Below are positions 37,771-57,899 of a stretch of DNA of 64,000 nucleotides, piece by piece; the stretch's first letter is position 1, and each line of letters starts with the position of its first letter. The stretch lies in the NCBI RefSeq assembly GCF_963678225.1, contig NZ_OY782764.1:526001-590000 (forward strand). Direction: 5' to 3'. A program made the position numbers and the translations under genes. The notes under the pieces were generated by a model. The model did not search any database. It was not told the origin of the DNA and saw only the letters and a list, made by a program, of their open reading frames with translations. This DNA comes from an uncultured Cohaesibacter sp. Lineage in GTDB: Bacteria; Pseudomonadota; Alphaproteobacteria; Rhizobiales; Cohaesibacteraceae.

Positions 37771-38886
37771 GTGGCAAATCAGACCAGTGACTGGATGCAG
37801 CGACCGGCCGTGATTTACGGTGTTGGATTCTGGAACAGAAAATCCATGGCGGGCATGCTCGCTCCTCTGCCCGGAAAGCCACGCTTTATCCGTTCCTTCA
37901 AACGCGCGCTCAAAGCGGCCAAAAACAGCAATGCCAGCCTGTTTGCATGGGCGACCCGCCTCAGCCCGGAGCAGCGCGCAGCCTGTGACGCCGAGGGCGT
38001 CCCCATCGTGAATGTAGAAGACGGCTTTATCCGTTCCGTTGGGTTGGGAGCCGCCTTCACTCCGGCAGCATCGCTGATCATGGATGCAAGCGGTATCTAT
38101 TACGATCCGTCCCACCCCAGCGATCTGGAAACCATGCTGCAACAGGATACTGTCAGCGGTGAAGAACGCTTACGGGGGCAGGCCTTCCGCCAAAAGGTCG
38201 TTGATTTGGGCGTCTCAAAATACAATCTCGGCAACAAGGCTTCCTCCAAAGGCTGCAGAACTGAGCACACCCCAACAGAAGCCTTGCGCATTCTCGTCCC
38301 CGGTCAGGTCAGCGATGATGCCTCCATCCAGAAAAGCCGTAGCGATAGTCTGGCGCTCGCCTCGGGCGAAAATCCCAATCTGCTATTGCTGAAATGGGTG
38401 CGCACCCATCACCCCGATGCCCATATCACCTTCAAACCACACCCGGACGTGACCAATGGCCTGCGCGATGGCAATCTATCGGACGCGCAAATGCTGGCAT
38501 ATGCAGACGCGATAGAGCTTGATACCGACATTATCCAATTGATCGAACAGTGCGATTCTCTACACACGATCAGCTCTCTATCTGGTTTTGAGGCCTTGTT
38601 GCGCAACAAGCATGTGGTCGTGCATGGCCTGCCTTTTTATGCCGGCTGGGGTGTCAGCGAGGATAAAACCAGCTGCCCGCGCCGCACCACAAAGCGCGAC
38701 TTGGATGAACTCGTCTATCTGGCTATGATCAAGTATCCGCACTATGTTTCCCCCCTCACTTTCCAATATTGTGAGGCAGAAGAGACCGTAGATCAGCTTT
38801 CAAGGTTAAGGAATAATAAAGCCGGATCAGCTAAGGATGTAATAATGCTGCAAATTGCCAGAATTGCCTTCAGACTTGGGCTCTGA
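37771..38886 (+). CDS. Capsule Kdo transferase, KpsC C-terminal-half homologue
   Basis: The 371-residue protein begins at GTG after AGGGAGG. It matches the C-terminal half of KpsC (GT107 in the E. coli protein): VEDGFIRSVGLG, GIYYDPSHPSDLE, VSKYNLG, LVPGQVSDDASI, KPHPDV, SSLSGFEALLRNKHVVVHGLPFYAGWG. The VPGQV-x-DDASI block separates it from the N-half homologue at 26603. It lies 15 bases after rkpH, so it is in the rkpA-G-H transcript. Together the two genes would replace a single KpsC of about 675 residues. Rhizobial RkpJ occupies this gene position, so that symbol may apply. Confidence 0.86.
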   Translation: MANQTSDWMQRPAVIYGVGFWNRKSMAGMLAPLPGKPRFIRSFKRALKAAKNSNASLFAWATRLSPEQRAACDAEGVPIVNVEDGFIRSVGLGAAFTPAASLIMDASGIYYDPSHPSDLETMLQQDTVSGEERLRGQAFRQKVVDLGVSKYNLGNKASSKGCRTEHTPTEALRILVPGQVSDDASIQKSRSDSLALASGENPNLLLLKWVRTHHPDAHITFKPHPDVTNGLRDGNLSDAQMLAYADAIELDTDIIQLIEQCDSLHTISSLSGFEALLRNKHVVVHGLPFYAGWGVSEDKTSCPRRTTKRDLDELVYLAMIKYPHYVSPLTFQYCEAEETVDQLSRLRNNKAGSAKDVIMLQIARIAFRLGL

Positions 38887-39154
38887 GAAAGACTGGGAGT
38901 TAATGCAGCAAAAGGCTTAATACCGTTGAAATTAGGCGTTATCAGTGATATCCAGATTGGCATTGATGAATATATGTTTGAAATCAAACGTGGTGTTTGT
39001 GCAACTGTCTGCTCAAAAATGTTGCTAAACAGGATTAACTGATTGATTTAATTTATGCTATTTTTGTATCGTGACTGAAGCATGATGCAAAAGCTGACGC
39101 GCAGATCTCATACGGGGGTGTTATTCCCGTTTGTTACCAACGAGTTATATACCC

Positions 39155-40291
39155 ATGCTTAGAATTCTTCTTGCTCTGATAGTTTCCGCTTCTTTGGCTG
39201 GTTGCGTTTTTACGCCACGAGAAGGGCCTCTATCTGCTGAAATTGAAAAGCAAAGCACCCAGAATGACTATCTTGTGGTTGACGTCGATTCGAAAGTTGT
39301 CGATGGCTTAGCCCGTTTCAACCCCGTTGGTCTGCATAGCAAGTTTAAATCCACGAGCCACCGCCTGCCTATATCCACAGTTGGTACCGGTGATATCTTG
39401 GCTATCACCGTCTTCGAAGCCGATCAGGGCGGCCTCTTCACTGGCAGCTCAGGCAACCGGGCCGAATTTCCCAAAGTCGTCGTGGACAACAAGGGCGAGA
39501 TCTCTCTGCCCTATTCCGGCACCATCAAGGTCAAGGGCAAGACCCCTCTGCAAATTCAGGATCTCGTAGTTGAGCGCCTGCAGGGCAAGGCTATTCAGCC
39601 TCAAGCCATGGTGAATGTCGTTCAGAACGAGAACAACGTTGTAACCCTCAGTGGTGACGTGACCAAGCCCGGCCTTTATCCTTTGTCATCCAAAGGCGTT
39701 CGTCTGCTCGACGTCGTTGCTCAGGCTGGAGGCACCAAATTCCCGGCTCGTGAAACCTATATCACGCTCATGCGCGGCTCCCGTCAGGGTGTCCAGCTGC
39801 TGGAAACCGTGATTGATCAGCCGGACGAGAATATCTATGTGTCGCGCGGCGACCGGATCTATCTTTCCCATGATCCGCAACGCTACACCGTGCTCGGCGC
39901 AGTCCAGAAGCCATCTGTCTATACATTCGATTCATCAACGATCTCTGTATTGGAAGCGATCGCCGCAGCTGGCGGGCTGAACGATAGCAGAGCCGATGCG
40001 ACAGGTGTCTTTGTCTTCCGCTACGAAGACCCGAAAGTTCTTGATACTTTGAACATTGGCTACACTCATCAGGTCCGTGGCAAAGTTCCGACTATTTATC
40101 GTATTAACATGAAGCACGCACAGTCGTATTTTTATGCGCAATCCTTCCATCTGCAGGATAAGGATTCTGTATTCGTTTCAAATGCGCGTGCTGTCGAAAT
40201 CGGCAAGATCCTGCAACTTATGAATCTTGCAACTTCATCTGTAAGAAATATAGCAACGACCGGAAATAAGGTTGAAATTTTCAGTGATTGA
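39155..40291 (+). CDS. Outer-membrane polysaccharide export lipoprotein (OPX, BexD/CtrA/Wza-like)
   Basis: The 378-residue precursor begins MLRILLALIVSASLAGC, a lipoprotein signal with the lipobox LAGC (lipidated Cys at residue 17). The polysaccharide export domain follows (TGDILAITVFEADQGG, KGEISLPYSGTIKVKGKTPLQIQDLV) with SLBB-type repeats (VTLSGDVTKPGLYPL, YTVLGAVQKPSVYTF). It should form the periplasmic/outer-membrane channel for capsule. The size fits BexD/CtrA or Wza rather than the longer E. coli KpsD. A TTG 24 bases upstream is a weaker start. It opens a second transcript of the locus, together with kpsS. Confidence 0.9.
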   Translation: MLRILLALIVSASLAGCVFTPREGPLSAEIEKQSTQNDYLVVDVDSKVVDGLARFNPVGLHSKFKSTSHRLPISTVGTGDILAITVFEADQGGLFTGSSGNRAEFPKVVVDNKGEISLPYSGTIKVKGKTPLQIQDLVVERLQGKAIQPQAMVNVVQNENNVVTLSGDVTKPGLYPLSSKGVRLLDVVAQAGGTKFPARETYITLMRGSRQGVQLLETVIDQPDENIYVSRGDRIYLSHDPQRYTVLGAVQKPSVYTFDSSTISVLEAIAAAGGLNDSRADATGVFVFRYEDPKVLDTLNIGYTHQVRGKVPTIYRINMKHAQSYFYAQSFHLQDKDSVFVSNARAVEIGKILQLMNLATSSVRNIATTGNKVEIFSD

Positions 40292-40348: not shown

Positions 40349-41764
40349 GTGACCCAGGCATTGGAAAATCCTACTCAACAGGATGGGAAGAGAGTTTTTC
40401 TCTTTCTTCAGGGTCACCCCTCGTTCTTTGCCAGGAATGTAGCCAATCACCTTGAGGATCAAGGACACACAGTGCTTCGCATCAATTTCTGCCTTGGCGA
40501 TGCCATTTTATGGTGGGGAAGAAAGTCTCACAATTTCCGCAAGCCTTTCTCGTCATGGGAACAGTATTTGCGGGACTTCATCCAGACCCACCGCGTTACC
40601 GACATCATTTATTACGCGGACCGGAAGCCTTATCACCAGATCGCTGCAAAGGTAGCTGCAGATCTTGATATTCCAACCTATGCCTTCGAATTCGGTTATC
40701 TGCGGCCCGACTGGATCACTCTGGAAAGAGGCGGCATGTCGGCCTTTTCCCATTTCCCAATCGCCCCTGAAAAGATCAGTGCAATTGCCAATCAGGCCGA
40801 TGAGCCTGACTTTGAGCCGAAATATCCCTATACCAAACCACGAGAGATCTTCTACGAGGTTACCTACAATCTGCTCAGTTACTTCCTGTGGTTCTTCTAT
40901 CCATTTTACAAAGCAGACCGGTATTACAACCCGCTGGTCGAGTATATTTCGGGCATTCCCGGCCTCTTCCTTGAAAAGCGCCGGCACATAGCCGCACGCA
41001 AACTGGTCACGCAGCTCGGGCGCAAAAGACGGTCATTTTTCATCTTTTCTCTTCAGTTGCAAAGCGATTATCAGCTTCGTTCAAATGCGCCATTTTCTCA
41101 TCAAAAACGCGCAATCGAACAGGTCATTCGCTCCTTTGCCAGAACCTCTGATAAAAGCACGGACCTGATCTTGAAGGCACACCCTCTGGACAATGGACTG
41201 GAGCGCTGGGGCCCCTTCATCAAGAAAATTTCCAAGCAGCTTGGTGTATCCGAACGCGTCCATTTCATTGTTGGCGGCAACCTGACATTCATGCTGAAGC
41301 ACGCCAAGGGATGCGTCATGATCAACAGCACTGTTGGTTTGCATTCGGTCCGCTCCGGATGTCCAGTCAAGGTTCTGGGCCACGCCATTTTCGACATCGA
41401 GGGCCTTACCCATCAGGGTAGTCTGGACAGTTTTTGGACGCATCCGCAGTTGCCGGACGACAATTTTGTCAGAGACTTCGTGAAGGCGGTTGCGGCTAGC
41501 ATTCAGGTCAAAGGCAATTTCTTCACAACCAAGGGAAACAAGGCCGCAGTGCCTGCGTTTGCCAACAACCTCATCGAACGTAAAGTAAACGGCTATGACG
41601 CCTTTGAGGAAATGCCGCCAAGACTGACGACATTGGTTGCAAACGAACCACCCCTTTATGCCCCCAAGCCTGTTACAGTTGAAATCGACCCTGTCGAGCC
41701 AAAAGAGGCGACGCCAGATCGAATGCCGGTATTCGTAAACCCGCCGGCAGCAAAGGCAACCTGA
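40349..41764 (+). CDS. kpsS: Capsule biosynthesis protein KpsS-like (Kdo transferase)
   Basis: The 471-residue protein (GTG start) resembles KpsS, the cytoplasmic transferase that adds the first beta-Kdo to the lipid anchor of group 2 capsules. Typical segments are FLFLQGHPSFFARNVANHLEDQGHTVLRINFCLGD, YYADRKPYHQIAAKVA, AFEFGYLRPDWITLERGGMSAFSHFP, LKAHPLDNG and MINSTVGLHSVRSGCPVKVLG. The last roughly 70 residues are Pro-rich and variable. The partner KpsC function is supplied by the two half-genes at 26603 and 37771. It converges on the kpsM-T-E operon. Confidence 0.88.
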   Translation: MTQALENPTQQDGKRVFLFLQGHPSFFARNVANHLEDQGHTVLRINFCLGDAILWWGRKSHNFRKPFSSWEQYLRDFIQTHRVTDIIYYADRKPYHQIAAKVAADLDIPTYAFEFGYLRPDWITLERGGMSAFSHFPIAPEKISAIANQADEPDFEPKYPYTKPREIFYEVTYNLLSYFLWFFYPFYKADRYYNPLVEYISGIPGLFLEKRRHIAARKLVTQLGRKRRSFFIFSLQLQSDYQLRSNAPFSHQKRAIEQVIRSFARTSDKSTDLILKAHPLDNGLERWGPFIKKISKQLGVSERVHFIVGGNLTFMLKHAKGCVMINSTVGLHSVRSGCPVKVLGHAIFDIEGLTHQGSLDSFWTHPQLPDDNFVRDFVKAVAASIQVKGNFFTTKGNKAAVPAFANNLIERKVNGYDAFEEMPPRLTTLVANEPPLYAPKPVTVEIDPVEPKEATPDRMPVFVNPPAAKAT

Positions 41765-42135: not shown

Positions 42136-43248
42136 CTAGGCATGCTCGCGCATCACCGCAAGCGATACCGACACCATGAAATAGACCATCAGCGCGATAA
42201 TCGCACCGGTCAGAATATTATAGCCCCTTCGCGGAAACAGAGATGCTTCCGGCATGGTTGGGGCGGACACAATGGTCAAAAAACGCATGCGGCGTGCGGT
42301 CTCCAGTTGTGCAGCTTCAAGCGCCTCCAGGTGCGACTTGTAACGCAGGGTCTTATATTCAATCCTAAGATTGATATCCCTGAATTCGGAGTCAATCTCA
42401 CTAAGAGTGCGCCCTGAGCCACCAGCAAGACGCTCGTTTTCCTTCTCGATTTGCTGCTTGAGCGCTTCGCTCTCCGCCCGGAGCCTGATCAGAGTGGGGG
42501 AATTCTCGCCGAGCGTCCCCTGGCGAGAGGTAATTTGCGCCTGCTTGGCAGCCAGTTGCTGCTCAAGGCTAGAGATGGTTCCTGCAATGGTTTGCGAAGC
42601 AATTTCAGTTGAGAAAATCTTGTTCTTCTGCTGGAAGTCCTGCAGAACCTTTTTCTCCTGCATCAACTCTTCTTCTGATTGCTGCACCACGCCTTCAAAG
42701 AAAAGCAACTGCGAACGGGAAACCTTCTCGTTCAGATTATCGATGAATTTCTGGGAATGATACAGGATGCGGTCCAGCACCTTCTGAGAATAGGCCGGAT
42801 CAAAGGTTTGAACAGAAATCTCCAGCAACTTGGCTTCTTCATCCAGAGTAGCCGTCACCATGTCATTATAATATTCAAGCGCATATTCCCTTTCCGTGTC
42901 GGCCGATAATCGTGAAAAATAGTCGGCATCCGAAGAGGCAAAATGGTCTAACAGCCCCACATCGTCATTCAATTTATCAAGCAGCGTCGGGCTTTCAATA
43001 AAGGACTTCAAAACCATAATATCGCGGTCAGACGCAGTTGACGACGTGAGCCCTAGCATCGAGAGATCCAGCGGGCTGCTCTCAGATTTCGCTTCGGTAA
43101 TATAGACAGATGCAAGACTCTCATACCGGTCGGTTGCAATCAGCCCCTGATAAATAGCAACAATGGCTATAGGCAATATGAGAACGAAAAGAAACAGATA
43201 TAGCGACAGATTCAGAGCGGGCAATTTGCTCTTAATATCATTGATCAT
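42136..43248 (-). CDS. kpsE: Capsule export inner-membrane protein KpsE (PCP-3)
   Basis: The 370-residue protein has one membrane helix near the N terminus (SLYLFLFVLILPIAIVAIYQGLI) and one near the C terminus (ILTGAIIALMVYFMVSVSLAVM). Between them is a long periplasmic region with coiled coils (about residues 200-285, rich in Glu, Gln and Lys). This is the KpsE/BexC/CtrB polysaccharide co-polymerase layout; the PR-rich block before the last helix (APTMPEASLFPRRGYN) is typical. It bridges the KpsM-KpsT transporter and the outer-membrane lipoprotein. It overlaps kpsT by 11 bases. Rhizobial counterparts are called RkpR. Confidence 0.92.
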   Translation of the reverse strand: MINDIKSKLPALNLSLYLFLFVLILPIAIVAIYQGLIATDRYESLASVYITEAKSESSPLDLSMLGLTSSTASDRDIMVLKSFIESPTLLDKLNDDVGLLDHFASSDADYFSRLSADTEREYALEYYNDMVTATLDEEAKLLEISVQTFDPAYSQKVLDRILYHSQKFIDNLNEKVSRSQLLFFEGVVQQSEEELMQEKKVLQDFQQKNKIFSTEIASQTIAGTISSLEQQLAAKQAQITSRQGTLGENSPTLIRLRAESEALKQQIEKENERLAGGSGRTLSEIDSEFRDINLRIEYKTLRYKSHLEALEAAQLETARRMRFLTIVSAPTMPEASLFPRRGYNILTGAIIALMVYFMVSVSLAVMREHA

Positions 43249-44605
43249 CTTTGGCTCCGATATGTGGCTTTAGGCGCTCTGGAGTTCCGGCCTGGTCTGG
43301 GCCCGACGCATTCGGCCCTTCTGCATTTTTTATATTGGCATTGGGACGATTCTGCCCCCGCAGCAAGCCTGCTTGAGGGCCTTGCTCTGCGGTTTCATGC
43401 GCGAGAGGCCCGCTACGCGGCTTCATTCCGGCGTTAGGGCCTTGCTTCCTATTCGCAGCAGGCCCTTTGCCCTGCCCCATTGCAGCATTTGAGCCAGCTC
43501 CCTGATTCTTACCGGCGTTAGGCCCATTGCCTCTGCTCCCACCAGCATGCGGCCCCGCGCCGGGTTTCTGATTCAAACGAGGCCCGTTATCTTGTGCCAT
43601 TCTAGCCTTCTGCCCACCAGCTTGCTGTCTGTTCGCATGCGGCCCATTGCCTCTCGCCTCAGCGACATGCGGCCCCGCACCGGGCTTCTGATTGAAGCGA
43701 GGTCCGCCGCCTTGTTCGATGCTGGCGTTCGGACCACCAGTTTGCAGCCTGTTTGCATGAGGTCCATTGCCTTGCTTCACCGCCCCATTCGGGCCTGCTC
43801 CCTGATTCTTAGTGGCGTTGGGCCCAACGCCTCTCTTAACACCTGCATTCGGCCCGTTTCCGGCTTGTTTCTTGCGCGCAAGAGGCCCTTTCTTGGGGTG
43901 CATTCTCTTCTGGTTGGGCCGCTTTTTCCGCGCTGAAGGCTCCGACCCGATGTTTCGTTCGTAGACCTCGATAGCCTCTTCTATAGAGTCATACATGACC
44001 GCACTGCCCTTGTTCAGCACGAGCCCCATATTGCATTCATTACGTAATTCTCTGAGGCTATGAGATACCTTGATAAAGGAAGCCACTGCACGCTTATCCT
44101 TGAAGACCTTGGCACTTTTCTCCTTGAAATTCTTATCGCCAACAGCGGTCAGCTCGTCAATGATATAGCAATCAAAGGTAAAGGCCATCGCGATGGCAAA
44201 ATTAAGCCTTGCGCGCATCCCCGAAGAATAGGTTCGCACAGGCATTTCGTAATAATCACCAATTTCCGCGAACTCTTTCACTTCATCGATAATAACATCC
44301 ATTTCCTTGCGCGGAACGCCCTGCAAACGACAGGCAAAACGAGCATTCTCTCGGCCTGTCAAAGACCCCTGCATCGAGTTGGCCAAGCCCATCGGCCAAG
44401 ATATGGAACCTGTCCGTCGGATTGTGCCGGTATTGGGCATGTCAACACCGGCCAGAAGCCGCATCAACGTGGACTTACCGGTACCGTTTGGCCCCAACAC
44501 GCCCACCTGCGCACCGTCAGGTATGACCAAGGAGACATCCTTGAGAACATAGTGCCGCCCATTGGGCGTCGGGTAATATTTTGAGACCTCGAAGAGCTCG
44601 ATCAT
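43238..44605 (-). CDS. kpsT: Capsule ABC exporter ATPase KpsT with a long decapeptide-repeat tail
   Basis: Residues 1-220 form an ordinary KpsT ATPase: Walker A GPNGTGKST (38-46), signature TYSSGMRARLNFA (125-137), Walker B CYIIDELTAVGD (146-157) and switch His182. KpsT normally ends here at about 220 residues. This protein continues to 455. After a basic linker (221-250) come 14 in-register decapeptides (251-390) of pattern GP(N/H)A-x5-G, where the sixth to eighth residues are often basic or polar, then a degenerate region to 455. The tail is rich in Gly, Pro, Asn, Ala, Gln, Lys and Arg and should be disordered and basic in the cytoplasm. Start at ATG 44605 overlaps the kpsM stop by four bases; an earlier in-frame start would lie inside kpsM. 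The tail function is unknown. Confidence 0.93.
   Translation of the reverse strand: MIELFEVSKYYPTPNGRHYVLKDVSLVIPDGAQVGVLGPNGTGKSTLMRLLAGVDMPNTGTIRRTGSISWPMGLANSMQGSLTGRENARFACRLQGVPRKEMDVIIDEVKEFAEIGDYYEMPVRTYSSGMRARLNFAIAMAFTFDCYIIDELTAVGDKNFKEKSAKVFKDKRAVASFIKVSHSLRELRNECNMGLVLNKGSAVMYDSIEEAIEVYERNIGSEPSARKKRPNQKRMHPKKGPLARKKQAGNGPNAGVKRGVGPNATKNQGAGPNGAVKQGNGPHANRLQTGGPNASIEQGGGPRFNQKPGAGPHVAEARGNGPHANRQQAGGQKARMAQDNGPRLNQKPGAGPHAGGSRGNGPNAGKNQGAGSNAAMGQGKGPAANRKQGPNAGMKPRSGPLAHETAEQGPQAGLLRGQNRPNANIKNAEGPNASGPDQAGTPERLKPHIGAKDDQ
43436..43855 (-). repeat. In-frame 30-bp tandem repeats coding the KpsT tail
   Basis: Fourteen 30-bp units encode decapeptides beginning Gly-Pro (two variants Gly-Gln and Gly-Ser). 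There is a higher-order period of 120 bp: units beginning GPRFNQKPGA (residue 301) and GPRLNQKPGA (residue 341) are each followed by GPH and GP(H/N) units in the same order. Bases differ at many third positions, so the array is old enough to have diverged while keeping the peptide pattern. Confidence 0.88.
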
Positions 44606-45435
44606 GATTGCAGCAACTTGAAACGATACTTGAAGTAAAGAGCATAACCGATCCCGAGACCGATCACAGCCCATTCGAGCGGATAAGACAGATCAGAATC
44701 CGCAAACAAAGGCACTCCCAGAGCCCCTGCCCGGAAACCGTTTGTCAGATGGATTATGGGATTATAAGCAAGAACTGTCTGGATGTTTGCCGGCAGATCA
44801 AGAATCGAGAAAATGACGCCAGAAATAATCATGAGCGGACTCGTTACAATCCCAACAACCTTGAATAAATTCTCATTAAGCGTCCCAAGAACCGCTAGCG
44901 GTGTTGCGATCCCCATGGCAAACAACATCGAAATCAGGATAACTTCAACACACAATAGTGGGTCGGGGAAATCCGGCACGGCACCAAACAGCCACCAGAC
45001 CAACAAAATCAAGAGGACACTTGCCCATGCATGCATGAACATCGCGGTGATGAAACGGGCCAGAATTGTATCAAGAGGTTTCACCTGAGGATAATTGAGT
45101 AGGGCCATATTGGCCTGAATGGCATGTGCCAGATAGCCGAACCCATTTCTGACCGTATTGAAAACAATAAAACCACAGCCAACAAAGAGGGTCACGTGAA
45201 CACCTCGAATACTGGTTCGTCCGGAAGCCCACCAGACGGCGGTAATAATGCTCATCCCGACAATCGGTTCAAAAAGCGACCAGAACAGACCAATCCGGCT
45301 CTTTCCCAGACGGATTTTATATTCCTTGAAGACAAGCGCCCAGATAGCGGAAACCTGCTTTTGAAAACCGCGCTTATACAGATAGAATTCGCTTTTATTG
45401 TCTAAGCCTTTGGATTTCAACTTAACATTCTTCAA
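44602..45435 (-). CDS. kpsM: Capsule ABC exporter permease KpsM
   Basis: The 277-residue ABC-2 type permease has about six membrane helices. The N-terminal cytoplasmic part carries FKEYKIRLGKSRIGLFWSLFEPIVGM, typical of KpsM/BexB/RkpT polysaccharide exporters, and the C-terminal part NPIIHLTNGFRAG is also family-typical. With KpsT it moves the lipid-linked capsule chain across the inner membrane. It is the first gene of a minus-strand operon kpsM-kpsT-kpsE linked by overlaps of 4 and 11 bases. An N-terminal leader of about 30 residues before the core is slightly longer than in E. coli. Confidence 0.94.
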   Translation of the reverse strand: MKNVKLKSKGLDNKSEFYLYKRGFQKQVSAIWALVFKEYKIRLGKSRIGLFWSLFEPIVGMSIITAVWWASGRTSIRGVHVTLFVGCGFIVFNTVRNGFGYLAHAIQANMALLNYPQVKPLDTILARFITAMFMHAWASVLLILLVWWLFGAVPDFPDPLLCVEVILISMLFAMGIATPLAVLGTLNENLFKVVGIVTSPLMIISGVIFSILDLPANIQTVLAYNPIIHLTNGFRAGALGVPLFADSDLSYPLEWAVIGLGIGYALYFKYRFKLLQS

Positions 45436-45871
45436 ACCCGCTCTCCATGATCACGCATGCCGATAAGCAAATTAAGAGACTATCGAAAAGGTGGCTTCAG
45501 GGACGTGATTGCATAAAGTCCCGGATATAGATGAGATTATACTCTATTTGGGGTGAAAGTTTGTCTCACCCGAAGCAATGATTCCTAATAGTTAAAGTGT
45601 CGTCTCACACGGCTAACGTAACGTCAAGAGGTTCGTCGCGGGATGCCACATAGAGATATGTGATAGCCATAGATCGACATGACAGTGAGCCCCTATAGAC
45701 TCAGCAACAACCAGAAAATCCAAAACCAATCTTGCCGAATTTTTAGTGGCTATTGGTAGACAAACACCAAAGCACAACGATATAAAGGCTCCAATGTTTA
45801 CGTTCTGATTACATAATCATGTATGACAGTAAACTCTGTCACTTAATCCCAGAAGTTAGTTGAGTTCGCCA
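45436..45871. other. Intergenic region between divergent kpsM and cysD copy 1
   Basis: A 436-base, relatively A/T-rich region that must hold promoters for the kpsM-T-E operon (minus) and the cysD-cysNC pair (plus). The last 33 bases (45839-45871) belong to the long inverted repeat; sequence further upstream is unrelated to that before cysD copy 2. A small palindrome TACAT-AATC-ATGTA lies near 45810-45825. No convincing gene was found. Confidence 0.55.
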
Positions 45872-48569
45872 ATGCATTTTACTCACTTAAAGGCCCTCGA
45901 ATATGAGAGCATCCATATTATTCGCGAGGTTGCGTCGGAATTCAAGAACCCGGTGATGCTCTACTCGATCGGCAAGGATAGTGCCGTGATGTTGCATCTG
46001 GCGCGCAAGGCGTTTTATCCGTCTCGCTTGCCGTTTCCGTTGATGCATGTTGATACGACGTGGAAGTTCCGGGAAATGATCGAGTTTCGCGACCGGATTA
46101 CCAAGGAATATGACCTTGATCTGATCGTGCATACGAATGAAGAAGGCCGGGCGAACAATGTGAACCCGTTCACCCATGGTTCTTCGCTTTATACGCAGAT
46201 CATGAAGACGGATGCGCTAAAGCAGGCGCTGACCGCACACAAGTTTGATGCAGCCTTTGGTGGCGCACGACGCGATGAAGAGAAATCCCGCGCCAAGGAG
46301 CGCATCTTCTCCTTCCGGACAGAAAATCACAGCTGGGATCCGAAGAACCAGCGTCCGGAGCTTTGGAACATTTTCAACACCCGCACCAAGCCGGGCGAAA
46401 GCATCCGGGTCTTCCCTCTGTCCAACTGGACCGAGCAGGATATCTGGCAATATATCATGCTTGAGAATATCCCGATTGTTCCGCTCTATTATGCCAAGGA
46501 GCGCCCTGTCGTGCAGCGCGATGGCACCTTGATCATGGTGGACGACGACCGCATGCCGCTCAATGAAGGCGAAGTGCCGGAAATGAAGATGGTGCGCTTC
46601 CGCACCCTTGGCTGCTACCCGCTGACGGGCGCGGTTGAAAGCTCGGCCTCGACGCTGGAAGAGATCTTTGAAGAAATGCTGATTGCCCGGACCTCGGAGC
46701 GCGAAGGACGCATGATTGATCATGACGACACCGCATCGATGGAGAAGAAGAAAAGGGAGGGCTATTTCTGATGAGCGACGTGGAAACAACCTCGAAATCA
46801 TCGCTGGAAGGCGGCCAATTTGCCCGTCAGGAAAGCCGGGACATTCTGCGCTTTCTTACCTGTGGCAGTGTTGATGATGGCAAGTCCACCCTGATCGGGC
46901 GGCTGCTTTACGATAGCAAGACGATCTTTGAAGATCAGCTCTCTGCGCTGGAAGTGGTCAGCCGCAAGCATGGCACAACCGGGGACGATATGGACCTTGC
47001 GCTGCTGCTTGACGGGCTTCAGGCCGAGCAGGAGCAAGGCATCACGATTGACGTGGCCTATCGCTTCTTTGCGTCCGACAAGCGCAAATTCGTTGTCGCC
47101 GATACGCCGGGGCATGAGCAATATACCCGCAACATGGCGACCGGTGCGTCCAACTGCGATCTGGCGGTCATTCTGATTGACGCGCGCAAGGGCGTGCTGA
47201 CCCAGACCCGTCGTCACAGCTTCATCACCTCACTGATCGGTGTGCGCCATGTGGTGCTGGCGGTTAACAAGATGGACCTGATGGACTTCAGTCAGGAAGT
47301 GTTCGACAAGATCGTTGCGGATTATAACGCTTTTGCGCAAGGGTTCGAGTTCGAGACCATCATGGCGGTGCCGATGTCTGCCCGCTATGGCGACAATGTC
47401 GTGGTCAAGAGCGACAAGACCCCATGGTATGAAGGCCCGAGCCTTCTGTCCTATCTGGAAGAGATTGATGTTGAGAGCGCGGACCGGTCTCTGCCTTTCC
47501 GCTTCCCGGTTCAGTGGGTCAACCGTCCGAACCTCAACTTCCGTGGCTATTCGGGCACGGTGGCCTCTGGTGTGGCGCATGTGGGGGACGAACTCGTTGT
47601 CGCCAAATCCGGCAAGGTCTCCAAGATCAAGTCCATCGTGACGATGGATGGGGATTTGCAGGAAGTGGAAGCCGGACAGGCTGTCACGATCACGCTGGAA
47701 GACGAAATCGACATCTCGCGTGGCGATCTCTTGGCCCCGCCACAGCATCGCCCGCAGGTGACCGATCAGATCTCGGCCCATCTCATCTGGATGGATAGCA
47801 GCCGACTGATGGTTGGCCGGGCCTATATCATCAAGATGGGCAACCAGCAGGTTCAGGCGACGGTTACCGAGCTCAAGCACAAGATTGACGTGAACAACGC
47901 CTCCCACAAGGATGCGGGCAAGGCGCTGGATCTCAACGAGATCGGCTTCTGCAACATGTCCTTTGCGGAGCCTCTGGCGATGGATACCTATGAAGAGAAC
48001 CCGCATACGGGCTCCTTCATCCTGATCGACCGTTATTCCAACCAGACGGTTGCGGCTGGTCTTGTCTGGTTTGGCCTGCGCCGTGCCGAGAATGTGCATT
48101 GGCAGGCGGTTGATGTGGACAAGGCAGCGCGCGCCGAGCAGAAGGGGCAGAAGCCACGGGTTCTGTGGTTCACCGGTCTGTCGGGGTCGGGCAAATCCAC
48201 CATTGCCAATCTGGTCGAGAAGAAGCTGCATGGGGAAGGCCGTCACACCTATCTGCTGGATGGGGACAATGTGCGTCATGGCCTCAACCGTGACCTTGGC
48301 TTTACCGATGTGGATCGGGTCGAGAATATCCGCCGGATCGGCGAGGTCTCCAAGCTGATGGCTGATGCGGGTCTAATCGTTCTGACCGCCTTCATCTCCC
48401 CTTATGCCGCCGAGCGGCGCATGGTGCGCGAGATGCTTGAAGAGGGCGAGTTCATCGAGGTCTATGTGGATACGCCGATGGAGGTGTGTGAAGCACGCGA
48501 TGTGAAGGGTCTTTACGCCAAAGCTCGCGCGGGCAAGATCCAGAACTTCACTGGCATCGATGCGCCATA
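45839..48569 (+). repeat. Left arm of a 2,731-bp inverted repeat (cysD-cysNC copy 1)
   Basis: This segment is the reverse complement of 55169-57899; positions pair as x with 103738 minus x, without gaps. Identity starts 33 bases before the cysD ATG and ends inside the last 34 codons of cysNC. The encoded proteins are identical over the whole arm, the frames on the other strand are also identical, and every stretch compared base by base matched, so the arms appear to be perfect copies. No transposase or terminal repeats accompany them. Confidence 0.95.
45872..46771 (+). CDS. cysD: Sulfate adenylyltransferase subunit 2 (copy 1)
   Basis: The 299-residue protein is CysD/NodP, the catalytic subunit of ATP sulfurylase that forms APS from ATP and sulfate. 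Visible are the PP-loop of the N-type ATP pyrophosphatase family [18 protein letters not shown], then [16 protein letters not shown] and the C-terminal [24 protein letters not shown] 45872 starts [16 protein letters not shown]; a TTG 12 bases earlier is possible. The stop overlaps cysNC by one base (TGATG). The protein is identical to that of 56967-57866. It probably feeds polysaccharide sulfation rather than, or besides, cysteine synthesis, since sulfotransferases and cysQ are near and no sulfite-forming reductases are. Confidence 0.96.
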
Positions 48570-48669
48570 TGAAGAGCCGGTCAATCCGGAGATCTATGTC
48601 AACACTGCTAAAATGTCTGCAGAACAGGCCTCCGATCTCATCGTCAAGGCGCTGCAAGAGCGAGATTGA
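46771..48669 (+). CDS. cysNC: Bifunctional sulfate adenylyltransferase subunit 1 / APS kinase (copy 1)
   Basis: The 632-residue protein fuses a GTPase (CysN, about 1-440) to APS kinase (CysC, about 460-632), as in NodQ. Cys[35 protein letters not shown]. CysC: P-loop [11 protein letters not shown] with Lys475, [15 protein letters not shown], and [17 protein letters not shown] hydrolysis drives APS formation and the kinase makes PAPS, the universal sulfate donor. The last residues (from [19 protein letters not shown]) differ from copy 2, because the repeat stops before them. A terminator follows. Confidence 0.96.
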
Positions 48670-52420: not shown

Positions 52421-53245
52421 ATGACCTCTGCGCGAGAAATCACCATTATCGCTGCGCCCAGAACGGGAACAAACTATTTCTGTGATAGTCTTGGTGAGTT
52501 TGATAATTTTGCTAATATGTTCGAGATTTTCAATCCACGGGGTGCTTTTGGGCTGGCGCGCTTTCCGGAAATTCTGGCAAGTCTTCGCGAAAAGGCCGGT
52601 ATAGACTTTCAAGATCAGACAGATCCTGCTCTTACCCAATATGTTGCAGAAAATCGGTTGGTGTTTCTTGAAATTCTCAGAGATGCTATGACCAATGCAG
52701 GCAAATTGGCCTATTCATATAAGGTGTTTCCGCACCAAATGACCGGAGATGAACTTGATCAAATGATCGGCAAGCCAGATAGCCTGATCTTGTTTATTGT
52801 TCGCAGTCGTATTGATACCTTTATTTCCTACAAAAAAGCGATGCTCTCCGATGTCTGGGTGAATGCAGACACGAAGGATACCAAGCCGGAAATTGAGTTT
52901 GATGAATTCATGCAGTGGGCCGAGGTCGAAGATCGCTGGTATAGAGCCTCTGAGGAGCGCGTGCGTAAGGCCGGCAAGTCATACATGACCTTCTCTTATG
53001 AAGCAGATATCAACGTAACCAAACCAGTTCTTCTGGAACAGCAATATCTTTATCTTCGTGGGCAGGGTATTCCGGTTGACTTTCCGTCTGACATTACGCC
53101 TCCGACATTCAAGCGGCAGGACGGTGTTGTCGGCCCATTCAAAAAAATTAAGAATGGCGAAGAGCTCAAACAGACATTTTTGGACAAGGGTTTGTTGGGT
53201 AAATATGCCCTTAGAAACCCATTGGTTGATCTAAGAACAAGTTAA
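52421..53245 (+). CDS. Sulfotransferase (Stf0/NodH/LpsS-like)
   Basis: The 274-residue protein has the 5'-phosphosulfate loop IIAAPRTGTNYF (residues 9-20; P-loop R14-T-G-T). The 3'-phosphate site is LFIVRSRIDTFISYKKA (Arg128 and Ser136), and YKVFPHQM lies before it. It is closest in style to Stf0 and the rhizobial NodH/LpsS carbohydrate sulfotransferases, which move sulfate from PAPS to sugar hydroxyls. Flanking PAPS synthesis genes and cysQ strongly support this role. No leader is seen, so it acts in the cytoplasm before export. The upstream 220-base gap is A/T-rich and probably holds its promoter. Confidence 0.88.
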   Translation: MTSAREITIIAAPRTGTNYFCDSLGEFDNFANMFEIFNPRGAFGLARFPEILASLREKAGIDFQDQTDPALTQYVAENRLVFLEILRDAMTNAGKLAYSYKVFPHQMTGDELDQMIGKPDSLILFIVRSRIDTFISYKKAMLSDVWVNADTKDTKPEIEFDEFMQWAEVEDRWYRASEERVRKAGKSYMTFSYEADINVTKPVLLEQQYLYLRGQGIPVDFPSDITPPTFKRQDGVVGPFKKIKNGEELKQTFLDKGLLGKYALRNPLVDLRTS

Positions 53246-53454: not shown

Positions 53455-54195
53455 ATGCAAATCGCAAGTGAATTAGGGAAGAATGGGTACTATATCCAAG
53501 TCGGTGAAAAAGTTCCCAGTAACTTCACAGTATTGGGTGAACGCAGTTCTGGAACAAACTTTCTGAAGGCGCAGCTCGACACTATCCCGGATATGCAGTT
53601 TAAGAATTGGGGATGGAAGCATGCTTTCATTACAGCTTGGAATGTTTCGCCAAACTTGATGATTTTCGGTATCGTCAGAAACTGGAATGACTGGTTACTT
53701 AGCATGCATAAAAAACCCTGGCATGCATCCAAACAACTCCACGAGATGGCGTTTTCTGATTTCATTCGGACAAAATGGGAGTCTCATCCTATTCCAAGGC
53801 CACGGCAGGATCAGAATATGATCATCGAAAAGACAATTCCCGGTGACAGAAATCCGATTGATGGGTCTCAGATCGAGAATGTCTTGGCGCTTCGTGCTCT
53901 TAAATTGAAGAATCTTCTATCTTTGCCTTTAAGAGCGGAAAATGTGGTTTTGATGAAATATGAATGGTTCAATCAGAATCCCGGCGCGCTATCTGATCTT
54001 TTAAAGAGTAAATTTCCGTCTCTCGATTGCCCGAATTTCGAGAAGATAAAAGGTAAAAGCTTTGCATCCTTCGAAAACTACAAACGGTTTGAGGATTTTC
54101 GTCCTGAATTTTCCAAAACCATACCTGAGGAAGATCTGTCTTTCATTAAATCCAATCTGGACAGCGAACTGGAAGCAAGTCTTGGGTATATGTAA
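53455..54195 (+). CDS. P-loop sulfotransferase-like protein
   Basis: The 246-residue protein carries a sulfotransferase-type P-loop VLGERSSGTNFLKAQL (Glu29-Arg-Ser-Ser-Gly-Thr) and a 3'-phosphate-type segment FGIVRNWNDWLLSMHKKPW (Arg75, Ser83). Spacing between the two is short compared with most carbohydrate sulfotransferases. It ends with LESSLGY-like SELEASLGYM, as several bacterial sulfotransferases do. It is more divergent than the preceding gene, and the acceptor is unknown. A 209-base gap separates it from the first sulfotransferase gene. Its transcript ends at the perfect hairpin at 54225. Confidence 0.78.
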   Translation: MQIASELGKNGYYIQVGEKVPSNFTVLGERSSGTNFLKAQLDTIPDMQFKNWGWKHAFITAWNVSPNLMIFGIVRNWNDWLLSMHKKPWHASKQLHEMAFSDFIRTKWESHPIPRPRQDQNMIIEKTIPGDRNPIDGSQIENVLALRALKLKNLLSLPLRAENVVLMKYEWFNQNPGALSDLLKSKFPSLDCPNFEKIKGKSFASFENYKRFEDFRPEFSKTIPEEDLSFIKSNLDSELEASLGYM

Positions 54196-55071: not shown

Positions 55072-56967
55072 TTAGTCCTTTGTTAAATACGCAACAATGG
55101 CATCTGCAGCATCTTCGGCAGACATCTCGTCTGTATTTACATAAATTTCAGGATGACGAGGTGCTTGGTATGGCGCATCGATGCCAGTGAAGTTCTGGAT
55201 CTTGCCCGCGCGAGCTTTGGCGTAAAGACCCTTCACATCGCGTGCTTCACACACCTCCATCGGCGTATCCACATAGACCTCGATGAACTCGCCCTCTTCA
55301 AGCATCTCGCGCACCATGCGCCGCTCGGCGGCATAAGGGGAGATGAAGGCGGTCAGAACGATTAGACCCGCATCAGCCATCAGCTTGGAGACCTCGCCGA
55401 TCCGGCGGATATTCTCGACCCGATCCACATCGGTAAAGCCAAGGTCACGGTTGAGGCCATGACGCACATTGTCCCCATCCAGCAGATAGGTGTGACGGCC
55501 TTCCCCATGCAGCTTCTTCTCGACCAGATTGGCAATGGTGGATTTGCCCGACCCCGACAGACCGGTGAACCACAGAACCCGTGGCTTCTGCCCCTTCTGC
55601 TCGGCGCGCGCTGCCTTGTCCACATCAACCGCCTGCCAATGCACATTCTCGGCACGGCGCAGGCCAAACCAGACAAGACCAGCCGCAACCGTCTGGTTGG
55701 AATAACGGTCGATCAGGATGAAGGAGCCCGTATGCGGGTTCTCTTCATAGGTATCCATCGCCAGAGGCTCCGCAAAGGACATGTTGCAGAAGCCGATCTC
55801 GTTGAGATCCAGCGCCTTGCCCGCATCCTTGTGGGAGGCGTTGTTCACGTCAATCTTGTGCTTGAGCTCGGTAACCGTCGCCTGAACCTGCTGGTTGCCC
55901 ATCTTGATGATATAGGCCCGGCCAACCATCAGTCGGCTGCTATCCATCCAGATGAGATGGGCCGAGATCTGATCGGTCACCTGCGGGCGATGCTGTGGCG
56001 GGGCCAAGAGATCGCCACGCGAGATGTCGATTTCGTCTTCCAGCGTGATCGTGACAGCCTGTCCGGCTTCCACTTCCTGCAAATCCCCATCCATCGTCAC
56101 GATGGACTTGATCTTGGAGACCTTGCCGGATTTGGCGACAACGAGTTCGTCCCCCACATGCGCCACACCAGAGGCCACCGTGCCCGAATAGCCACGGAAG
56201 TTGAGGTTCGGACGGTTGACCCACTGAACCGGGAAGCGGAAAGGCAGAGACCGGTCCGCGCTCTCAACATCAATCTCTTCCAGATAGGACAGAAGGCTCG
56301 GGCCTTCATACCATGGGGTCTTGTCGCTCTTGACCACGACATTGTCGCCATAGCGGGCAGACATCGGCACCGCCATGATGGTCTCGAACTCGAACCCTTG
56401 CGCAAAAGCGTTATAATCCGCAACGATCTTGTCGAACACTTCCTGACTGAAGTCCATCAGGTCCATCTTGTTAACCGCCAGCACCACATGGCGCACACCG
56501 ATCAGTGAGGTGATGAAGCTGTGACGACGGGTCTGGGTCAGCACGCCCTTGCGCGCGTCAATCAGAATGACCGCCAGATCGCAGTTGGACGCACCGGTCG
56601 CCATGTTGCGGGTATATTGCTCATGCCCCGGCGTATCGGCGACAACGAATTTGCGCTTGTCGGACGCAAAGAAGCGATAGGCCACGTCAATCGTGATGCC
56701 TTGCTCCTGCTCGGCCTGAAGCCCGTCAAGCAGCAGCGCAAGGTCCATATCGTCCCCGGTTGTGCCATGCTTGCGGCTGACCACTTCCAGCGCAGAGAGC
56801 TGATCTTCAAAGATCGTCTTGCTATCGTAAAGCAGCCGCCCGATCAGGGTGGACTTGCCATCATCAACACTGCCACAGGTAAGAAAGCGCAGAATGTCCC
56901 GGCTTTCCTGACGGGCAAATTGGCCGCCTTCCAGCGATGATTTCGAGGTTGTTTCCACGTCGCTCAT
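55072..56967 (-). CDS. cysNC: Bifunctional sulfate adenylyltransferase subunit 1 / APS kinase (copy 2)
   Basis: The 631-residue protein is identical to the copy at 46771-48669 except for its C-terminal end. From residue 600 it reads [31 protein letters not shown] instead of the copy-1 ending, and it is one residue shorter. The GTPase motifs ([21 protein letters not shown]) and APS kinase motifs ([21 protein letters not shown]) are intact. The PEIYVNT segment and the final helix are normal APS kinase features in both copies, so both should be active. It is followed closely by cysQ, which copy 1 lacks. Confidence 0.96.
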
Positions 56968-57899
56968 CAGAAATAGCCCTCCCTTTTCTTCTTCTCCATC
57001 GATGCGGTGTCGTCATGATCAATCATGCGTCCTTCGCGCTCCGAGGTCCGGGCAATCAGCATTTCTTCAAAGATCTCTTCCAGCGTCGAGGCCGAGCTTT
57101 CAACCGCGCCCGTCAGCGGGTAGCAGCCAAGGGTGCGGAAGCGCACCATCTTCATTTCCGGCACTTCGCCTTCATTGAGCGGCATGCGGTCGTCGTCCAC
57201 CATGATCAAGGTGCCATCGCGCTGCACGACAGGGCGCTCCTTGGCATAATAGAGCGGAACAATCGGGATATTCTCAAGCATGATATATTGCCAGATATCC
57301 TGCTCGGTCCAGTTGGACAGAGGGAAGACCCGGATGCTTTCGCCCGGCTTGGTGCGGGTGTTGAAAATGTTCCAAAGCTCCGGACGCTGGTTCTTCGGAT
57401 CCCAGCTGTGATTTTCTGTCCGGAAGGAGAAGATGCGCTCCTTGGCGCGGGATTTCTCTTCATCGCGTCGTGCGCCACCAAAGGCTGCATCAAACTTGTG
57501 TGCGGTCAGCGCCTGCTTTAGCGCATCCGTCTTCATGATCTGCGTATAAAGCGAAGAACCATGGGTGAACGGGTTCACATTGTTCGCCCGGCCTTCTTCA
57601 TTCGTATGCACGATCAGATCAAGGTCATATTCCTTGGTAATCCGGTCGCGAAACTCGATCATTTCCCGGAACTTCCACGTCGTATCAACATGCATCAACG
57701 GAAACGGCAAGCGAGACGGATAAAACGCCTTGCGCGCCAGATGCAACATCACGGCACTATCCTTGCCGATCGAGTAGAGCATCACCGGGTTCTTGAATTC
57801 CGACGCAACCTCGCGAATAATATGGATGCTCTCATATTCGAGGGCCTTTAAGTGAGTAAAATGCATTGGCGAACTCAACTAACTTCTGGGATTAAGTGA
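55169..57899 (-). repeat. Right arm of the 2,731-bp inverted repeat (cysD-cysNC copy 2)
   Basis: This is the mirror of 45839-48569. The arm starts 33 bases before the cysD ATG (minus strand) and stops at the same codon of cysNC. The arms enclose 6,599 bp (48570-55168). Recombination between them would invert that interior and exchange the two cysNC ends. Confidence 0.95.
56967..57866 (-). CDS. cysD: Sulfate adenylyltransferase subunit 2 (copy 2)
   Basis: The 299-residue protein is identical to copy 1 (45872-46771), including the PP-loop YSIGKDSAV and C-terminal GRMIDHDD. It overlaps the cysNC start by one base. Upstream, only 33 bases are shared with copy 1, so the promoter is different. Here the gene lies 160 bases downstream of ugd on the same strand and could be read from it or from a promoter in the 57900-58026 gap. 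Two identical sulfurylase pairs point to a high or separately controlled demand for PAPS. Confidence 0.96.

Follow-up and report, generated by a model that had tools for sequence, protein, structure and literature searches.

A KpsT variant with a basic, in-frame decapeptide-repeat tail in Cohaesibacter

The kps locus and the extended KpsT

In the window, by which we mean the whole 64,000-nucleotide stretch of uncultured Cohaesibacter sp. DNA that was analyzed, the reverse strand carries an operon of three capsule-export genes, namely kpsM (44602..45435; ABC2_membrane, 7.9e-15; NF050053 KpsM, 5e-30, below its curated cut-off), kpsT (43238..44605; an open reading frame of 455 amino acids with stop), and kpsE (42136..43248; TIGR01010, 2e-79, also below its curated cut-off). 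The kpsT start at 44605 (MIELF...) overlaps the kpsM stop, and its own stop codon lies at 43238-43240. Beyond kpsE, the forward strand encodes KpsS (40349..41764; Capsule_synth, 8.7e-72; NF050054, 3.3e-73, below its curated cut-off), a KpsD-like polysaccharide export protein (39131..40291; Poly_export and SLBB), and a KpsC-like protein (37771..38886; Capsule_synth, 1.6e-39; no NCBIfam match). Upstream of kpsC are genes for a 2567-residue polyketide/fatty-acid-type synthase and an aminotransferase-fold protein, which we take to resemble the wcb operon. The accessible text of a paper on the sulfated capsule of Cobetia names this operon for the capsule lipid (PMC11766843). KpsS itself has 471 residues, with the family-model match ending at residue 393 and the extra part being proline-rich toward its end.

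Adjoining kpsMTE, at 45.9-57.9 kb, are cysD, cysNC, an inositol-phosphatase-family gene (presumably CysQ-like), and a sulfotransferase-like gene. The sulfate-activation genes are present twice, as copy 1 (cysD and cysNC; 45860..48669, forward strand), recognized by its identity to copy 2 (cysNC and cysD; 55072..57878, reverse strand; Pfam APS_kinase, GTP_EFTU, and PAPS_reduct). The sulfotransferase-like match is weak (52421..53245, forward strand; PF13469, E of 0.0026, 18.5 bits against a cut-off of 27), and its product gave no NCBIfam match and no meaningful PDB match, nor did a second sulfotransferase candidate at 53455-54195 match any family. The original prediction had called the capsule probably sulfated, and this stands as plausible, since the mix of cysD, cysNC, the inositol-phosphatase-family gene, and the weakly matched sulfotransferase-like gene beside kpsMTE is one linked with sulfated capsules in the accessible text of PMC11766843 and PMC11641403. 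On gene content, we thus regard the polymer as probably sulfated.

The duplication of cysD-cysNC takes the form of a 2.8-kb inverted repeat, whose 2806-nt arms (45839-48644 and 55094-57899) show no differences in their first 2731 nt, with the arms in the same-genus relative G002 (L128; 154-2938 and 8766-11550) being 99.4% identical. Between the arms in the window is a 6.4-kb segment with glycosyltransferase and sulfotransferase-like genes, and the homologous segment in G002 is inverted relative to it; inter-arm recombination therefore probably flips the segment.

As for KpsT, its nucleotide-binding ABC domain (residues 1-220; 43946..44605, reverse strand) is delimited by Pfam, a PDB match, and an AlphaFold model. 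Pfam ABC_tran (4e-16) spans residues 21-154, with 60.3 bits against a cut-off of 25, and Gly43-Lys44, Ser127/Gly129, Asp150-Glu151, and His182, which we take to be the ABC ATPase motifs, are invariant in an alignment of 22 proteins. Among solved structures, the best relative is 8tsi chain A (E of 3.1e-66, aligned over residues 1-220), followed more distantly by TagH (8.1e-39) and 6amx (3.2e-38), the latter presumably a Wzt-type protein. Under its generic PDB label, 8tsi is the KpsT of the complex in PMC11041684. The best 25 of 168 NCBIfam models all score below their curated cut-offs, with teichoic-acid exporter models at the top (NF010065, 3e-44) and a VexC model at 6.4e-20, and no KpsT model is among these best 25. 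The name KpsT is given because of the solved relative and the operon, and export of capsule is the role predicted from sequence for the 455-residue protein. Ending shortly after the ABC domain is a common, if not universal, trait of KpsT; this protein does not. As originally predicted, the ABC domain finishes near residue 220, where the last helix in the AlphaFold model (208-220) and the 8tsi alignment both end, and the protein runs on to residue 455.

The tail thus comprises residues 221-455 (235 residues; 43238-43945 with the stop codon) and divides into three parts on the reverse strand. First is a strongly basic neck (residues 221-250; 43856..43945), defined by its charge and mostly conserved across three species. 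Next are 14 in-register decapeptides (residues 251-390; 43436..43855), recognized by TRF, lag identity, and unit count, and last is the tail end (residues 391-455; 43241..43435), which is set apart by alignment and composition and finishes with GAKDDQ. All 14 decapeptides begin with glycine and 12 of these with Gly-Pro, but the strict opening Gly-Pro-Asn/His-Ala is found in seven, so the predicted number and register of the units hold, and the predicted uniformity of their opening does not. The tandem-repeat analysis proposed with that prediction independently detected a 120-nt array of 2.2 copies at 43520-43776 (TRF). Moreover, identity within residues 236-430 is 0.303 at lag 10 and 0.381 at lag 40, compared with 0.11 (sd 0.02-0.03) in 1000 residue shuffles, whose maxima were 0.205 and 0.200, respectively. 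The 40-residue higher-order period that had been put forward is indeed the strongest in the window, but in the tails of both relatives it is lag 60 that is strongest.

The tail carries a net charge of +26, +28, and +33 in the three species, and the prediction of a basic and probably disordered chain is supported. Charge is densest in residues 221-260 (+7 in 221-240 and +5 in 241-260) and near zero after residue 400, at a modest overall density (NCPR 0.11-0.13). Aromatic residues number one or two, hydrophobics amount to about 8%, and Gly, Pro, Asn, Ala, and Gln make up a fraction of 0.64. In the AlphaFold2 model, block mean pLDDT is mostly at least 90 up to residue 220 (one block at 86 and two near 70), and is 34-53, mostly below 50, in the tail, which has no secondary structure. 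The low tail values arise partly because the input alignment of 22 proteins is shallow there, the same tail being present in one other row (L043), and we consider the tail, on this model, to be probably disordered. At E values of up to 1, no PDB sequence matched the tail, and at up to 0.001 no second copy was found in the same genome (4.94 Mb, two contigs).

Constraint on the tail and its distribution

Two same-genus relatives, G009 (the tail of which is that of Cohaesibacter marisflavi, L043) and G002, carry the tail in frame, with no frameshift or stop. KpsT lengths across the three species are 455, 465, and 474 residues, and the frame, the stop, and mostly the unit register are common to all three, with gaps of 20, 10, and 1 residues in the tail alignment. 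By the Nei-Gojobori method, the three pairs gave a tail dN/dS of 0.297, 0.264, and 0.273 (bootstrap limits of 0.17-0.45), against 0.85-1.61 in the two wrong coding-strand frames; the corresponding values for the ABC domain are 0.023, 0.057, and 0.062. Pooled comparison among the 14 units gave a pS of 0.70 and a pN of 0.42, and so the earlier claim of selection on the protein is supported both between species and between units. Neither a frameshift leaving the tail untranslated nor free decay of the repeat, the outcomes that had been named as contrary to the prediction, was found in the two tailed relatives. Antisense open reading frames over the tail (129, 348, and 236 residues in the three species) differ in length between species and were set aside; the frames covered by the dN/dS comparison, the two wrong ones of the coding strand, show no constraint.

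Which features of the protein are kept was then judged against 2000 neutral simulations at like divergence, started from one living sequence and not an ancestor. Here, Gly-Pro motifs fell to 8 (sd 2), with no run reaching 18, against an observed 18-19, and hydrophobics plus cysteine rose to 33 (sd 4), against an observed 19-21. Simulated net charge was 19 (sd 6), compared with 28 and 33 in the relatives, values that were attained or exceeded in 8.3% and 1.6% of runs, so the excess of charge over drift is weak. In directed pairwise comparisons, Lys/Arg is retained as Lys/Arg in 188 of 228, Ala in 160 of 196, and Gly in 226 of 266; as the Gly, Ala, Lys/Arg, and Asn classes are all kept alike (80-85%), the basic residues are not specially favored. 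Judged from these sequence comparisons, the tail is translated and under protein-level constraint, and the product of 43238-44605 is a real, selected, and unusual variant of KpsT.

In searches of samples from the order, class, and phylum, the decapeptide form was found in 3 of 397 order genomes, these being the same three that carry it among 18 genomes of the genus (the window, G009, and G002). The class sample gave three matches in 385 genomes (the window and two with internal stops), and the phylum sample two in 398 (the window and a low-complexity repeat of the GSDATGAAAT type). No tail was found in the plasmids or the viral contigs sampled. Among the 29 loci of our first search for relatives, L009 and L010 alone carry the decapeptide tail, and C-terminal parts of folded type occur in several ABC proteins that are more distant; L016, with a long match to query residues 1-312, was rejected as a tailed KpsT, its own KpsT ending at residue 222. 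As far as searched, the decapeptide form appears confined to three Cohaesibacter.

C-terminal extensions of other kinds also occur. KpsT-like proteins of at least 296 residues, found with the ABC domain, occur at 17 of 77 named loci (of which L105 is a fragment, L051 runs off its contig, and L049 is the same locus as L015), and belong to 13 Halomonas, two alphaproteobacterial MAGs, C. marisflavi, and an Anaerolineae protein of 435 residues. None of 18 other class-level matches (E up to 1e-45) exceeds 233 residues. In the 13 Halomonas loci (L050, L052-L058, L060-L062, L068, and L104), the extension has 79-135 residues, and in the one protein modeled (L062, the ABC domain of which is partly poor in that model) it consists of a linker and a hairpin of helices 251-277 and 282-309, with pLDDT of 81-91 there. 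The KpsT proteins of L049 and L114 bear basic tails of 117 and 128 residues, and at both loci the kpsM and kpsE homologs found are situated upstream of kpsT, at a distance of more than 1.3 kb, and not around it. A tree of 67 ABC domains (row L051 unlabeled) requires a minimum of three changes between the tailed and the plain form, with support of 100/99 for the Cohaesibacter trio and 100/100 for the MAG pair; from this and from the differing types of extension, we conclude that extensions of KpsT have multiple origins and are not of one form. In the same context, the KpsT of L047, on a 3.3-kb contig labeled as a Thiotrichaceae MAG, groups with Hyphomicrobiales/Cohaesibacter, possibly by binning error or transfer.

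The original prediction knew of no KpsT with such a tail, which holds for the decapeptide type, but not for extensions in general, given those of the 13 Halomonas and two MAGs. A literature search on KpsT and capsule export with tail, repeat, disorder, or Halomonas, which most subscription journals lay outside, found no KpsT described with a tail of this kind. In the accessible text of PMC4594306, the C-terminal extension belongs to PCP proteins and not to KpsT, and that of PMC7814019 names a Halomonas KpsT with no mention of a tail.

With regard to sulfation, cysD/cysNC lie within the fetched locus (about 5 kb on each side) at 4 of 14 loci with an extended KpsT versus none of 41 with a plain one (Fisher p of 0.003, uncorrected for kinship), a count over loci of at least 10 kb that leaves out L102 and L105 and by length drops L043, which has the genes, and other shorter loci. 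All four positives are Halomonas, and 10 of the 14 extended loci have no cysNC in the stretch read. In the tailless Zobellella maritima, a cysNC lies some 24 kb from kpsT, provided that contig C1 is that of L107, the one locus for which this distance was computed among 24 of the 77 loci (23 genomes). On these counts, an association of the tail with sulfation is no more than suggestive.

Possible roles of the tail

To our knowledge, how long charged chains are held in the cytosol before and during export is an open question. According to the accessible text of PMC11041684, the glycolipid enters an electropositive KpsM canyon in the solved KpsMT-KpsE complex, and export was lost on replacement of three arginines in that canyon. 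Our preferred reading, to which we give a probability of roughly 0.4, is that the tail serves as an electrostatic holding arm for the polyanionic capsule chain at the cytosolic mouth of KpsMT. Two tails, with about +52 charges in total, would extend beneath the ATPase-domain dimer, catch the cytosolic, lipid-linked, polyanionic chain (Kdo-linked and probably sulfated), and keep it near the canyon entrance, making loading and export more efficient. The Gly-Pro-containing units would keep the tail chain open and poor in hydrophobics, with Lys/Arg side chains forming weak, sliding contacts with the polymer. Polymer contact, holding role, and geometry are all what we infer. Charge-based holding would account for both the retained basic charge and the scarcity of hydrophobics, and with a probably sulfated polymer it would be the simplest reading; against it, the charge density is modest, Lys/Arg is retained no better than Ala or Gly, the charge excess over drift is weak, and most of the KpsTs examined have no such tail.

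The strongest rival, which we judge somewhat unlikely, is that the tail is a tolerated minisatellite, a harmless product of repeat expansion between kpsT and kpsE, whose frame is maintained through translational coupling of kpsE to the end of kpsT. Here, the junction itself is suggestive, as the kpsT end and kpsE start overlap by 11 nt (43238..43248, reverse strand) in the window, G009, and G002 alike, and in all three tailed species a GGAG (43255..43258, reverse strand, within the last kpsT codons) stands six bases 5' of the kpsE ATG, being likely, by position and sequence, its Shine-Dalgarno ribosome-binding site. The tail, moreover, sits where tailless congeners have a spacer: of the four read over 20 kb, L125, L126, and L127 have the three genes arranged as kpsM-kpsT-kpsE, and the distance from the kpsT stop to the first long ATG-initiated frame of kpsE is 135, 135, and 55 nt, respectively (the 20 kb read for L124 gave no kpsE match). 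Tail length differs in steps of 20 and 10 residues, the ABC domain has a dN/dS some 4- to 13-fold lower than the tail, and some units find their best match in a relative at a position other than the corresponding one, a pattern that gain, loss, or exchange of units would produce. However, coupling explains the frame and the length changes, and does not by itself constrain amino acids, and this sits poorly with a tail dN/dS near 0.27 beside wrong frames near 1, and with Gly-Pro motifs and a scarcity of hydrophobics kept far better than in the neutral simulations.

As a second alternative, the units could act as a scaffold or spacer that docks biosynthetic enzymes (glycosyltransferases, sulfotransferase, or KpsS/KpsC) and couples synthesis to export. 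Periodic and conserved units, a chain predicted to be disordered, and capsule enzymes encoded in the same locus would all suit such docking; yet one or two aromatics and about 8% hydrophobics leave little for specific contacts, and no partner was found, which makes this reading unlikely. The C-terminal region of KpsS was considered as a partner and rejected, since the alignment to KpsS from L125, which has no tail, extends as far as residue 465 and that region is not specific to tailed species. Binding to other polyanions, such as anionic lipids of the inner membrane, RNA, or condensates, would fit the basic neck at residues 221-260 directly after the last ABC-domain helix, but with no specific signature found and so few aromatic residues we hold it to be improbable. 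An artefact, whether an untranslated repeat past a mis-called stop or a sequencing error, is scarcely credible when three genomes agree in frame, the tail is constrained as protein, and kpsE starts within its end.

Among solved structures, the KpsT-type chains that we retrieved are short, at 234 residues. A removable tail in a marine bacterium, natural tailless relatives, and other tail types together make the cytosolic holding step testable. Should the tail prove passive, it would remain a clear example of a tandem repeat whose reading frame has been preserved between two export genes that overlap.

Comparison with known export systems

The solved KpsMT-KpsE complex (8tsi and others; PMC11041684) resembles the present system in that its ABC domain aligns over residues 1-220, and here too there are kpsM and kpsE, with kpsD-like, kpsS, and kpsC-like genes. 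In contrast, its KpsT chain of 234 residues lacks the 235-residue repeat tail. The sulfated-capsule clusters of Cobetia marina KMM 1449 and Vibrio sp. KMM 8419 likewise combine kps exporter genes with cysN/C, cysD, and sulfotransferases, though the accessible text of the two papers (PMC11766843 and PMC11641403), taken apart from the KpsT sequences themselves, mentions no KpsT tail.

The Halomonas KpsT proteins (296-352 residues; 13 loci) belong to the same wider group and have an extension after about residue 217. Unlike the Cohaesibacter tail, this is a linker and predicted helical hairpin, with a Gly, Pro, Asn, Ala, and Gln fraction of 0.26-0.43 versus 0.64, and no such hairpin, nor any helix, is seen in the AlphaFold model of the Cohaesibacter tail. 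Moreover, the Halomonas tails have a net charge of -5 to +10, so that a charge mechanism of this kind would not extend to them.

Wzt of the O-antigen exporters also has a C-terminal addition to its exporter ATPase, which according to the accessible text of PMC9445017 is known to recognize the polymer. There, the carbohydrate-binding domain is folded and solved, whereas the Cohaesibacter tail is repetitive and predicted to be disordered; a Wzt-type β-sandwich was sought in the tail, which has no modeled strands (pLDDT of 34-53) and no Wzt_C match in Pfam. By analogy, the Wzt domain is a possible functional parallel of the tail. More broadly, and here we are doubtful, the KpsT C-terminus might be a recurrent add-on site for lineage-specific polymer-handling modules, notably for sulfated capsules, with the Cohaesibacter module being a disordered polycation that holds polyelectrolyte cargo, as an unstructured analog of the carbohydrate-binding domain of Wzt.
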